Below are positions 36,578 to 39,667 of a stretch of 40,241 bases of DNA, piece after piece. The notes under the pieces were generated by a model. That model made no database searches. It saw only the letters and a program-made list of their open reading frames with translations, and was not told the origin of the DNA. The position numbers and the translations under genes are program-made. Location: assembly GCA_025929465.1 (NCBI GenBank), contig JAICMC010000003.1, positions 1 through 40,241 of the forward strand, in the 5' to 3' direction. The DNA comes from Nostocoides sp. Its GTDB lineage: Bacteria; Actinomycetota; Actinomycetes; Actinomycetales; Dermatophilaceae. Within the stretch, counting starts at the first letter, position 1, and every line of letters begins with the position of its first letter.

Positions 36578-36729
36578 CGTCGCCCTCCTCCTGATGCGTG
36601 GCCCCGGCGTCGGGGCGGTCTTCGCGATCCCGCTGCGTCTGCTCAGATGAGCGAGTATCTTGCACGTATGAGACTGGTGGTTTGGGTCACACTTGTCAAC
36701 AGGTGGGGCCACGCCGTGGGACGTACCCG
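36578..36729. promoter_or_regulatory. Divergent control region between the polyol operon and its regulator
   Basis: This 152-bp region is less GC-rich over 36645-36700. On the minus strand TTGACA (plus 36694-36699, TGTCAA) is a consensus -35 box for the transport operon, but a matching -10 at ordinary spacing is not obvious. No perfect operator palindrome is visible. The divergent arrangement suggests that the regulator binds here. Confidence 0.45.
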
Positions 36730-37683
36730 GTGAACGAGCGCCGGGGCCCGACCGAGACGGTCCTGATGGACGCCGTGGCTCGGCGGCACTACCTGCGTGG
36801 GGAGTCCAAGGTCGAGATCGCCGGTGCCCTGGGGATCAGCCGGTTCAAGGTGGCGCGACTGCTCGACGACGCCCTGGCCTGCGGGGTGGTCCGGATCGAC
36901 ATCCTCTCGCCGCCCGGTCTGGACGCGGAGCTCTCCGAGCGGCTGCGCCGCGCCTACGGGCTCCGCTACGCCATCGTCGTCCCGGGGGAGGCCGAAGGCC
37001 GCTCCGCGGTGGCCCAGGCGGCGGCCGACCTGCTCCTTGAGGTGCTCACCCCGGCGGACGTCCTGGGGCTGCCCTGGAGCCGCTCGGTCAGCGACGTGGT
37101 GAACCGGCTCACCACGCTCCCCGCGATCCCGGTCGTCCAGCTGTGCGGCGGGCTCGTCCTCGCGGGGGAGGAGGGCAGCTCCTCGGACGTCGTGCGTCGT
37201 GCCGCCCGGATCGCCGGCGGGCCGAACCATGTCTTCTATGCGCCGCTCATCCTCGACGATGCCGAGTCGGCCGGTGCACTGCGCAGGCTGGCGTCGGTCC
37301 GCGACGCGCTGGCACACGTCCCGACCGTCACCGTCGCGATCATGGGAGTCGGTGCCTGGGTGCCCGGGGGTTCGACGGTGTGCGACGCGGTGAGCGACCG
37401 GACGCGGGCCGAGGTCGCCTCGACCGGCGTCGTGGGGGAGATGGGTGGCGTCCTCTTCGATGCCGGAGGGCGGCCCGTGGACAGCGAGCTCTCGGCTCGG
37501 ATCGTGGCCATCACCGGGGCTCAGCTGCGAGCCATCCCGAACGTCATCGCCGTGGCGCACGGTGCTGCCAAGGTGACCGCGATCGACGCCGCAGTGCGTG
37601 GCGGCCTGGTCCACTCGCTCGTGACGACCGCCGCCACCGCGACCGCCCTGCTCGCCGGCGCACCTCTCCCGTCAACGAACTGA
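36730..37683 (+). CDS. SorC/DeoR-family sugar-responsive transcriptional regulator
   Basis: A 317-residue regulator. The N-terminal helix-turn-helix (about residues 26-46, SKVEIAGALGISRFKVARLL) is followed by a sugar-binding SorC domain with GLPWSRSVSDVVNRL, VVQLCGGLV and IMGVGAWVPGGS. The GTG at 36730 gives the usual short leader before the HTH. The ATG at 36766 is the alternative. It is divergent from the polyol operon and most likely controls it in response to a phosphorylated or free sugar alcohol. The last three codons and the stop are formed by the first unit of a tandem repeat. Confidence 0.88.
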   Translation: MNERRGPTETVLMDAVARRHYLRGESKVEIAGALGISRFKVARLLDDALACGVVRIDILSPPGLDAELSERLRRAYGLRYAIVVPGEAEGRSAVAQAAADLLLEVLTPADVLGLPWSRSVSDVVNRLTTLPAIPVVQLCGGLVLAGEEGSSSDVVRRAARIAGGPNHVFYAPLILDDAESAGALRRLASVRDALAHVPTVTVAIMGVGAWVPGGSTVCDAVSDRTRAEVASTGVVGEMGGVLFDAGGRPVDSELSARIVAITGAQLRAIPNVIAVAHGAAKVTAIDAAVRGGLVHSLVTTAATATALLAGAPLPSTN

Positions 37684-37751
37684 CCCCAAGTCGTGTCCTC
37701 CCGGTCGACGAGCTGACGCCAAGTCGTGTCCTCCCGGTCGACGAGCTGGCC
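37671..37751. repeat. Tandem repeat, 33-bp unit, about 2.5 copies, related to 18001-18092
   Basis: Units start at 37671 (GTCAACGAACTGACCCCAAG), 37704 (GTCGACGAGCTGACGCCAAG) and 37737 (partial). Each full unit ends TCGTGTCCTCCCG. The first unit contains the regulator's TGA stop. The first 26 bp match the 18001 family at about 20 positions by eye. Confidence 0.9.
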
Positions 37752-37797: not shown

Positions 37798-38424
37798 GTG
37801 CCGACCGACAACCCACCGCCCGATACCGCGGGGAGCGCCGGCCTTCGCCCGGGGCAGGACGCGACCTCCGCGGGCGGGCCGACCGCGGGGTCCCGGGCTG
37901 GACGGTCGGGCCCGCACGGGGTCCTCGCCCGTGCGCGCGCCGATCTGCGGCACGGGCGGTCATGGAAGGCTCGTGACCGTCTCGCCGGCCACCTCACGTC
38001 CCACCGTGACCCCGAGGCGCTCGACCTGCTCGGCCAGGTGCACTACGACATGGGAGACCTGCCTGCGGCTGGCGCGGCCTGGTTCGGGTCGGCCCGCCGA
38101 GGGGCGGACGTCGACGAGGCCGTCGCGGCCTGGCGTGAACGACACGGGGACGACTTCGGCCAGATGTGGCGGTCCATCCCTCGCGCAATGCGCGCCGAGC
38201 CGCGCACGGCGAGGCTCGAGGCCTTGCGGCGCAAAGCGATCGACCAGGACCGTCGGGACGGGCACACCGACCGCGGGCCGGACCGGCCGGGCCCGCAGAA
38301 GCACGTCCCGGACGCCCTGCGCGGGGTCGACCCGGCGAAGGTCATCGCCTGGGTCCTCGCTGCCGTCTTCGTGGTCTGCAGCATCGTCGGACTCATCACG
38401 ATCCTCAACTGGGTCGTCTCCTGA
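37798..38424 (+). CDS. DUF6584-type protein with a C-terminal membrane anchor
   Basis: A protein of about 208 residues. The conserved part is LARARADLRHGRSWKARDRLAGHL, then DPEALDLLGQVHYDMGDLPAAGAAWF (about 45-100), which looks like a pair of TPR-like helices, followed by GDDFGQMWRSIPRA. This matches my memory of the actinobacterial DUF6584 family. A single C-terminal helix (VIAWVLAAVFVVCSIVGLITIL) anchors it with the N-terminal part in the cytoplasm. The start is uncertain: GTG at 37798 is my choice, since further upstream codons translate the repeat block. A 23-bp tandem duplication covers its stop codon. Function is unknown. Confidence 0.65.
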   Translation: MPTDNPPPDTAGSAGLRPGQDATSAGGPTAGSRAGRSGPHGVLARARADLRHGRSWKARDRLAGHLTSHRDPEALDLLGQVHYDMGDLPAAGAAWFGSARRGADVDEAVAAWRERHGDDFGQMWRSIPRAMRAEPRTARLEALRRKAIDQDRRDGHTDRGPDRPGPQKHVPDALRGVDPAKVIAWVLAAVFVVCSIVGLITILNWVVS

Positions 38425-38455
38425 GCCGTGAATGGGTCGTCTCCTGAGCCGTGAA
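38410..38455 (+). repeat. 23-bp exact tandem duplication across a stop codon
   Basis: TGGGTCGTCTCCTGAGCCGTGAA occurs in two exact abutting copies, described here as TGGGTCGTC at its start and GAGCCGTGAA at its end, at 38410-38432 and 38433-38455. The first copy contains the TGA that ends the DUF6584-type gene. The second copy ends at the palindrome in front of the leader-peptide promoter. Confidence 0.95.
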
Positions 38456-38467
38456 CAAACTGTTTGT
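38455..38467. promoter_or_regulatory. Palindrome overlapping the -35 region of the leader-peptide promoter
   Basis: ACAAAC-T-GTTTGT is a perfect 13-bp palindrome and is strikingly AT-rich here. It overlaps the likely -35 region (38463-38468), so a bound repressor would block transcription. The cognate regulator is not known. Confidence 0.5.
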
Positions 38468-38498
38468 GTTATCCCAAGGTGACGTTATAGTTGAACTC
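38463..38498 (+). promoter_or_regulatory. Promoter of the cysteine dioxygenase transcript
   Basis: TATAGT at 38486-38491 is a strong -10 box, followed by 7 bp and then the GTG of the leader ORF. A weak -35 (TTTGTG, 38463-38468) is 17 bp upstream. The spacing predicts transcription starting at or within 1 nt of the GTG, making the leader ORF leaderless. Confidence 0.65.
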
Positions 38499-38570
38499 GT
38501 GAAGCCCGCACGTTCGATGCCGCACTCCTGGATGCCCAGCGGTGGCCTGCCGCGCTGTTGTCGTCGCTGA
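38499..38570 (+). CDS. Leader peptide with tandem Cys codons upstream of cysteine dioxygenase
   Basis: A 23-residue ORF starting with GTG, apparently leaderless, since it begins 7 bp after a -10 box. It reads MKPARSMPHSWMPSGG and then LPRCCRR before TGA. The two adjacent TGT codons are residues 20 and 21, near the end. Polycysteine leaderless short ORFs in mycobacteria act as cysteine-responsive attenuators of downstream genes. Here the downstream genes are a cysteine dioxygenase and a rhodanese-like protein, which fits cysteine sensing. A small hairpin GGCCG-ACCAC-CGGCC (38594-38608) lies in the 120-bp gap to the dioxygenase gene. Confidence 0.65.
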   Translation: MKPARSMPHSWMPSGGLPRCCRR

Positions 38571-38690
38571 CGACCCGCCCAGCCACCGACCCCGGCCGAC
38601 CACCGGCCCCCTGCGCGGCATACCCGCTGCCTCGCTGCCGACCAGCCCAGCGCACCCTCGTGCCGTCCCGAACGCCCAGGAGCCCGACCC

Positions 38691-39260
38691 ATGACCATCA
38701 CTGCCGACGCCCCCGTCGCCACCGGACCCGCCCGGTCCACGACCTCCCGCCCGGACCGGCCCCTCGCCCCCACGTTCCCGGCATACGAGCACCTCACGGA
38801 CCCCGCAGAGCGCGTCCTCGCGGCCGTCGTGCGGAGGATCGCCGGCGACCCCAGCCGGTGGGGGCACCTCGTCCGTCAGGGCCCGCAGCGCTCCGGGACC
38901 AGGATCGAGGTCACCGAGGGCGTCGAGGTGTGGGTCATCGCGTGGCCGACCTTCCAGGCGACCGAGCTGCACAGCCACGGCGAGGCGACGACCGCCTACA
39001 CCACGGTGGCCGGGGCGATCACCGAGATCCGGCCGGACCGCCGGGGACGGCTCCTGCCGCGCACGTTCGTCCCGGGCGTCGTCCAGGTGGTCCGGCCCGG
39101 CGAGGTCCACGACGTCCGCAACGAGCGGGCGACGCCGGCGGTGACGATCCACGCGTACAGCCCGCGCCTGTCCAGCATGACGTTCTACGGCTGGAGTGCC
39201 GGGCGCCTGTCGGTCGACCGCGTGGCCGGACCCGACGACCTGGGGGCGGGGGCATGGTGA
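38691..39260 (+). CDS. Cysteine dioxygenase family protein
   Basis: A 189-residue cupin. Iron ligands are H94 and H96 (TELHSHGEATTAY) and H140 (RPGEVHDV). The conserved SPRLSSMTFY near 158-166 supplies the active-site Tyr166. It oxidises cysteine to cysteine sulfinate with O2, the first step of cysteine breakdown. The ATG has AGGAG 8 bp upstream. The first 28 residues are Thr/Pro-rich and outside the fold. The next gene's start overlaps its stop, so the two proteins work together. Confidence 0.88.
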   Translation: MTITADAPVATGPARSTTSRPDRPLAPTFPAYEHLTDPAERVLAAVVRRIAGDPSRWGHLVRQGPQRSGTRIEVTEGVEVWVIAWPTFQATELHSHGEATTAYTTVAGAITEIRPDRRGRLLPRTFVPGVVQVVRPGEVHDVRNERATPAVTIHAYSPRLSSMTFYGWSAGRLSVDRVAGPDDLGAGAW

Positions 39261-39667
39261 CCGCGTCGACGATGGGGATCAAGGACGTCCTGGAGACGTC
39301 GCGGCTCGGCATACGACGGGTGGATCCTGTTGACCTACAACGGCTTCGGACTGCGGGCGCCTTCGTCGTCGACATCCGGCCGGAGCGGGTTCGCCGACGG
39401 GAGGGCCACATCCCGGGCGCCGTGGTGCTGGAGCGCAACGTCCTGGAGTGGCGGCTCGACCCGACCAGTGGCGTCGCGATGGCACGCGGTCCGCGACGGG
39501 ACCAGCTCGTCGTCATCGTGTCCAGCGAGGGCTCCGCGTCCAGCCTCGCGGCCCGCGACCTGCGTCAGATCGGGTTCCTTCGCGCTGCGGACCTCGTCGG
39601 TGGCTTCCGGGCGTATGCCGCGGCCGGCCACCCGGTGGACCGGCAACCCTCACGCGTCGTCGACTGA
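39254..39667 (+). CDS. Rhodanese-like domain protein lacking the catalytic Cys
   Basis: A 137-residue single rhodanese domain: VVDIRPERVRRREGHIPGAVVLER (about 38-61) and, after the active loop, LAARDLRQIGFLRAADLVGGFRAYAAAGHPV. Actinobacterial rhodaneses that follow cysteine dioxygenase usually read VCxEGxxSSLAA. Here the same place is VSSEGSASSLAA, so S90 stands where Cys should be. It probably cannot carry a persulfide and may bind sulfur compounds or act as a partner protein instead. The ATG at 39254 overlaps the dioxygenase stop by 7 bp, and the GTG at 39257 is an equally coupled alternative. Confidence 0.8.
   Translation: MVTASTMGIKDVLETSRLGIRRVDPVDLQRLRTAGAFVVDIRPERVRRREGHIPGAVVLERNVLEWRLDPTSGVAMARGPRRDQLVVIVSSEGSASSLAARDLRQIGFLRAADLVGGFRAYAAAGHPVDRQPSRVVD

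Follow-up and report, generated by a model that had tools for sequence, protein, structure and literature searches.

The stretch of DNA analysed here (the window, 40,241 nt of Nostocoides sp. contig JAICMC010000003.1) ends in a short operon, in which a promoter-like stretch, a leader ORF and a spacer precede a gene of the cysteine dioxygenase (CDO) family and a rhodanese gene (Table 1). The original prediction had described a 23-codon ORF with two late Cys codons, a -10 box 7 nt before its GTG and a 120-nt gap behind it, and all of these elements are present: the GTG at 38499 stands 7 nt past TATAGT, and 120 nt separate the leader TGA from the ATG of the CDO-family gene at 38691. An alternative in-frame start (GTG at 38451) would give a 39-aa reading and is positioned upstream of the predicted promoter. 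A generic sigma-70 scan returned no promoters, leaving the predicted leader promoter unflagged. No Pfam or NCBIfam model matches the leader peptide, a search of the entire window for known Rfam elements gave 0 matches at the gathering threshold, and no intrinsic terminator was found in 38380-38760.

Two tandem repeats lie upstream. Just before the promoter, a perfect 23-base duplication (38410-38455) spans the stop codon of the preceding DUF6584 gene, and the matching region of a same-genus neighbour, G001, carries other repeats, as judged by eye. Further upstream, a 33-base repeat (88%; 37668-37733) lies at the end of the ORF at 36598-37683; a similar ORF in G001 gives scores with DeoR/LsrR models.

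Table 1. Features of the leader and its operon at the end of the window.
Feature	Position	Strand	Description
Promoter	38463..38491	+	-35 TTTGTG 38463-38468, 17-nt spacer, -10 TATAGT 38486-38491; read by eye
Leader ORF VKPARSMPHSWMPSGGLPRCCRR	38499..38570	+	GTG start, 23 codons plus TGA; leaderless-looking
Conserved block	38532..38558	+	Codes MPSGGLPRC
Predicted hairpin	38540..38588	+	SGGL codons 38540-38546 pair with 38582-38588, just past the leader stop
Cys codons 20 and 21	38556..38561	+	TGT TGT
C-rich, G-poor spacer	38571..38690	+	54% C and 25% G; candidate rut-like stretch, judged on composition alone
Shine-Dalgarno sequence of the CDO-family gene	38678..38682	+	AGGAG
Thiol dioxygenase, CDO_I family	38691..39260	+	189 aa; PF05995, E 1.4e-8
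Single-domain rhodanese	39254..39667	+	Overlaps CDO end; PF00581, E 2.3e-9

A degenerate DNA pattern for MPSGGLxRC was searched for in 186 genomes of the family. It occurs in four places (genomes G000, G001, G010 and G091, representing three genera), and every one of them immediately precedes a CDO gene; a reversed control pattern gave 1 match. The CDO proteins of the other three members are 71, 53 and 44% identical to that of the window. Among the four members the nine-residue block differs in one residue (P/A), and 5 of its 27 bases vary, four at synonymous third codon positions and one responsible for P/A, while the N-terminal half of the peptide shows no conservation. Because the variation in the block is mostly synonymous, the peptide, and not merely its Cys pair, is by the evidence of this alignment under selection. 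Aligning the four regions gives long runs of invariant columns at the block and the -10 region, and all four leaders share TTTGNN, 16-17 nt, TATNNT, 6-7 nt and GTG in this order (by eye and from the alignment). The original prediction of a Cys-containing, leaderless-looking leader that resembles the mycobacterial Cys attenuators is supported, and the leader is conserved.

Two more specific expectations held in part. The first Cys codon is found in all four members, but the adjacent pair is not invariant, being present in three; the G091 member ends RCRG, with a single Cys. Likewise, our check for the ORF upstream of orthologous genes recovered it in three further genomes but not in two other close orthologues, those of G206 and G005. 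No leader was found in G206 (CDO 57% over the aligned part), where the gene starts 7 bases after TATGGT, or in G005 (CDO 53%), where it starts 37 bases after TATGTT; both keep a similar promoter, as judged by eye. The leader is therefore dispensable in evolution. Scanning contigs with a slightly stricter form of the motif returned 16 stretches, with a CDO gene in L095 and L096 and no CDO match in the other 14, from a contig set that may omit records of the window's own genome.

Within that genome (an assembly 73% complete), short ORFs were scanned for on both strands of 230,508 bases, comprising the window and 20 further stretches. Two ORFs of 8-40 aa begin 5-8 nt after TATNNT, one of them being the window leader, which alone of the two has Cys among its last nine residues. 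The leader peptide is almost certainly real and, judging from the promoter-like sequence in front of it, very probably leaderless.

Candidate Cys leaders are not confined to the MPSGGLxRC group. We fetched 91 CDO-family loci, three of which are the same places as others, leaving 88 distinct loci. A candidate Cys leader lies upstream in 66 of the 88, in about nine kinds that overlap in part; since the kinds were set by eye on the same 88 loci, this count is descriptive. The kinds are MPSGGLxRC (4 loci), MSST..MRCCCCA (12), ..AVMCC (8), RxHxDL..C (14), WHxC[RL] (10), GYV..C (11), an RC[PR]R type (7, including two of the MPSGGL loci), SITQ..CC (4) and ERCR (3). With the same patterns, the reverse strand gave a match at 1 of 88 loci and each of ten shuffles at 0-2 of 88, versus 64 of 88 in the control run, which cut the stretch at the start of the CDO match; because the patterns were drawn from these loci, such controls test specificity and not discovery. 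Several of the 22 loci without a match look like near-misses (L016, L018, L045, L062 and L074), and three (L001, L029 and L030) may not be orthologues. Nine or so apparently unrelated candidate kinds of Cys leader precede one enzyme family.

Some of these leaders are arranged in tandem. Throughout the MSST group (12 aligned loci from three genera: L035, L051, L054-L057, L059, L066, L070-L072 and L084), a second leader peptide, of the form R-x-H-x-D-L..C, is encoded after the first leader and before CDO; the example in L084 matches NF042934 (29.3 bits), and that in L066 does not. At four loci with WHxCR-type leaders (L009, L016, L036 and L041; WHLCRY in L016), CDO is followed not by rhodanese but by a membrane protein that we take to be LtrA-like.

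Of 394 genomes from the class as a whole, 195 contain a match to the CDO family. The 30 best-scoring class loci (L112-L141) belong to one genus, which we take to be Streptomyces-like, and all carry (M/V)TDTCVRLWRRVHMDLVRYAGCVCRPSC-like leaders. The one leader tested scored 37.1 bits with NF042934, above its cut-off of 27, and matched Ms5788A only weakly, below threshold. The last leader codons, mostly CAGGACGG, are complementary to the CDO Shine-Dalgarno (SD) sequence over 6 nt or more in 27 loci of the 30 and over eight bases in 19, with a mean of 7.2 versus 4.3 and 4.0 for other leader segments, although the loci are closely related and do not amount to 30 independent cases. Given this complementarity, a stalled ribosome would free the SD, so that stalling would turn expression on. 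At one locus of this set, L125, more than 40 C stand in a row between the leader and the CDO gene, which may reflect an assembly error. Short ORFs at 20 further class loci (two of them second copies from the Streptomyces-like genus) were inspected by eye, and a plausible leader was seen in some, such as L147, L150 and L155.

The four genomes bearing MPSGGLxRC were also examined for Cys leaders at other genes. In a strict scan of 40 loci around their genes for sulfite reductase and rhodanese, leaderless Cys leaders turned up at CDO genes only, in three places, and because of this a wider Cys-leader regulon is not evident in the four genomes. The sulfite reductase genes of G000 and G001 showed no Cys leader. 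Upstream of the G091 sulfite reductase gene (L187), there is a leader of the RRHVDL kind, SRRHVDLCRSTAASC, which scores 25.6 bits, just below the NF042934 cut-off of 27. The same model gave two weak matches in the window's own genome, neither over the cut-off.

The original prediction had called the downstream gene product a cysteine-degrading enzyme, a description that its sequence does not prove. The protein matches PF05995 at 34.9 bits against a cut-off of 23, and its residues H94, H96 and H140, presumably the cupin His ligands, are invariant across 13 proteins; where the substrate-binding Arg lies differs with the reading of the alignments. When 13 relatives were combined into a profile, it matched ergothioneine dioxygenase with an E of 5e-31, compared with 1.3e-15 for Bacillus subtilis CDO and 2e-14 at best for mammalian CDO, and the top 13 Foldseek matches of a structure model (pLDDT 84.9) are all ergothioneine dioxygenase chains. 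The nearest solved relative by both profile and fold is the enzyme of Thermocatellispora tengchongensis (PDB 8qfl-8qfr, from whose titles the name ergothioneine dioxygenase is taken), at 26% identity in the fold alignment. For the one Streptomyces-like enzyme tested, the best match was likewise ergothioneine dioxygenase.

Neighbouring genes offer further indications of function. In G198 (L225:7545-11365), where an RRHVDL leader lies upstream (L225/L047), the CDO gene overlaps a gene for an FMN monooxygenase of the NtaA/DmoA family, and a second such gene and an FMN reductase gene follow; by sequence, a similar monooxygenase-like gene occupies the same place beside CDO in G195. A rhodanese gene lies downstream in 48 of the 66 leader-bearing loci versus 11 of the 22 others. 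A search for egtD returned none in six genomes, and no control genome passed the cut-off either; if the gene is lacking, either the ergothioneine used as substrate comes from outside the cell or the enzyme acts on another thiol. Judged by profile and modelled fold, the enzyme appears more likely to be a sulfur-scavenging thiol dioxygenase, taking a thiol to sulfinate and on to sulfite, than to serve cysteine disposal. Actinobacterial genes named 'cysteine dioxygenase' may therefore serve sulfur scavenging.

Between leader and enzyme, the RNA has two features of possible regulatory relevance. The predicted hairpin encloses the Cys codons and the leader stop, with z-scores of -2.3 in the window, -2.8 in G001 and -3.1 in G010; it is absent in G091 (+0.8). 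One of its pairs is compensated between the window and G001 (C-G to U-A). In C minus G, the spacer ranks first among 35 intergenic regions that precede genes in its own genome, a background that rests on crude gene calls and includes the CDO region itself, and C exceeds G by a factor of 1.7-2.2 in all four MPSGGL spacers; such a composition would suit Rho. C-richness averages 0.23 at the 66 leader-bearing loci versus 0.15 at the 22 others (one-sided p 0.066, strict grouping), a difference that is not significant; with a looser grouping, in which five near-misses were moved and two loci dropped, p is 0.0014. A C-rich spacer is thus not clearly peculiar to loci that bear a leader.

On balance, we read the window leader as a cis-acting peptide of the actinobacterial Cys-attenuator kind that probably turns its operon on when cysteine is short. 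RNA polymerase would start at the GTG itself, and a ribosome would translate the leader at once. With cysteinyl-tRNA scarce, the ribosome would slow on reaching the Cys codons, when the leader stop is two or three codons away, and there it would keep the hairpin around these codons open and cover the start of the C-rich spacer. Transcription would then continue into the operon, most likely protected from Rho; with plentiful cysteine, the ribosome would leave and expression would fall. The parts of this reading differ in strength. From its sequence and context, the leader is likely to be Cys-responsive, and expression of the operon at cysteine shortage is fairly probable; the Rho read-out is put forward tentatively.

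The original prediction had supposed that control of cysteine breakdown would need the opposite logic, or else ribosome release in place of stalling. No such reversal is required, because the enzyme is more likely to scavenge sulfur than to dispose of cysteine: the profile, the fold, the G198 genes and the downstream rhodanese fit a release of sulfur from thiols, which would be wanted when cysteine is scarce. Three clues point the same way, namely the poly-Cys leaders at CDO genes of the same family (the MSST..MRCCCCA and ..AVMCC kinds), the NF042934-kind leaders of Streptomyces-like genomes with their SD-complementary ends, and the likeness to ergothioneine dioxygenase together with the FMN monooxygenase neighbours in G198. 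Counting against this reading are the LtrA-like neighbours, the negative egtD search, the SD accessibility described below, the missing hairpin in G091, the spacer composition that does not clearly mark leader-bearing loci, the scan that gave no sign of a wider Cys-leader regulon and the two orthologues without a leader (G206 and G005). In addition, the single Cys codon in G091 weakens sensing simply by tRNA charging. This raises the question of what a conserved peptide with one or two Cys senses, cysteine as such or the charging of its tRNA, and of whether the enzyme is made at cysteine shortage or at abundance.

One answer would be a TnaC-like arrest peptide, in which plentiful free cysteine, acting jointly with the nascent MPSGGLxRC chain, would stall the ribosome at or near the stop; this would shield the rut-like spacer and turn on cysteine breakdown. 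Such a sensor would account for the conservation of a nine-residue block and not of Cys codons alone, for the sufficiency of one Cys in G091, and for a block whose end is two or three codons short of the stop, with a C-rich spacer next, and the gene family does include true cysteine dioxygenases. However, the leaders that neighbouring genera have at this gene are poly-Cys ones, which tRNA sensing would predict, and the sulfite reductase gene at L187 is likewise preceded by a conserved leader, of the RRHVDL kind, so that a conserved motif does not imply sensing of high cysteine. We regard the arrest peptide as unlikely. Also doubtful is a broader proposal, in which MPSGGLxRC would sense cysteine or Cys-tRNA as a nascent chain and act via Rho. 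It would be one of some nine apparently unrelated Cys leaders at a single gene family, where a ribosomal cysteine sensor for thiol oxidation would have been invented repeatedly and some genera would have two different leaders in tandem.

The preferred attenuator could also be read out at translation, through an RNA switch in which pairing of the SD is longer-range or protein-assisted. This is the published read-out, it fits the Streptomyces-like loci, and a 7-nt stretch of the window leader (CTCCTGG) complements the SD, G091 having a different 7-nt complement. Yet the longest complements in G001 and G010 are only 4 nt, the places of the complements differ among the members, and the modelled unpaired probability of the window SD is 0.46 when the RNA is free and 0.42 with a stalled ribosome, staying at 0.42-0.46 in all modelled states. 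With no conserved complement, and an accessibility that a stall does not raise, SD sequestration was rejected as the read-out in the window's clade, and translational attenuation by a switch of the wider kind seems improbable.

It is more improbable still that the leader is not specific to cysteine and its translation merely keeps the transcript open, as a general sensor of translation or stress; only one Cys is invariant, the other invariant residues being M, P, S, G, G, L and R, but a late Cys is common to the leader kinds at this gene family, though Cys guided the search. Although short ORFs are common and two Cys codons alone are weak evidence, a chance ORF is the remotest of the explanations and was rejected on the placement of the motif, its conservation across three genera, the synonymous variation that marks selection on the peptide and its uniqueness in the scan of its own genome.

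Among the closest known systems are the mycobacterial polycysteine attenuators. Canestrari and colleagues reportedly described these leaderless short ORFs in 2020; in their read-out, the leader RNA is said to keep the SD of the downstream gene sequestered until a ribosome stalls, with expression rising under cysteine limitation. Details of attenuators of this type appear in excerpts of the citing papers (PMC9094748, PMC13236596), the latter of which describes attenuation of translation. As far as these excerpts go, the window leader shares with the mycobacterial attenuators (NF042933 Ms5788A and NF042936 Ms4527A) a leaderless-looking short ORF, late Cys codons and a sulfur-related operon downstream, and differs from them in its peptide, in having one or two Cys in place of a run, in its CDO-family target and in that SD sequestration was not found. 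None of the four MPSGGL leaders matches NF042933, NF042934 or NF042936 at E up to 10. With NF042934 (cis_reg_atten, 'putative leader peptide', RxHxDL..C), whose kind precedes CDO in Streptomyces-like genomes and some relatives, the window leader shares a short conserved peptide ending near Cys, without the RxHxDL motif. TnaC, the tryptophanase leader, is a conserved peptide before a Rho-type spacer; the window leader resembles it in having conserved residues beyond the sensed amino acid and possibly a catabolic operon, with Cys instead of Trp and a spacer that is rut-like by composition only. In the best-ranked literature matches, the listings and the opening parts of the abstracts describe no Cys leader at a CDO-family gene. 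As far as its sequence can tell, the leader is a new family of a known kind of regulator, which would extend ribosome-based cysteine sensing to an operon of a thiol dioxygenase and a rhodanese.
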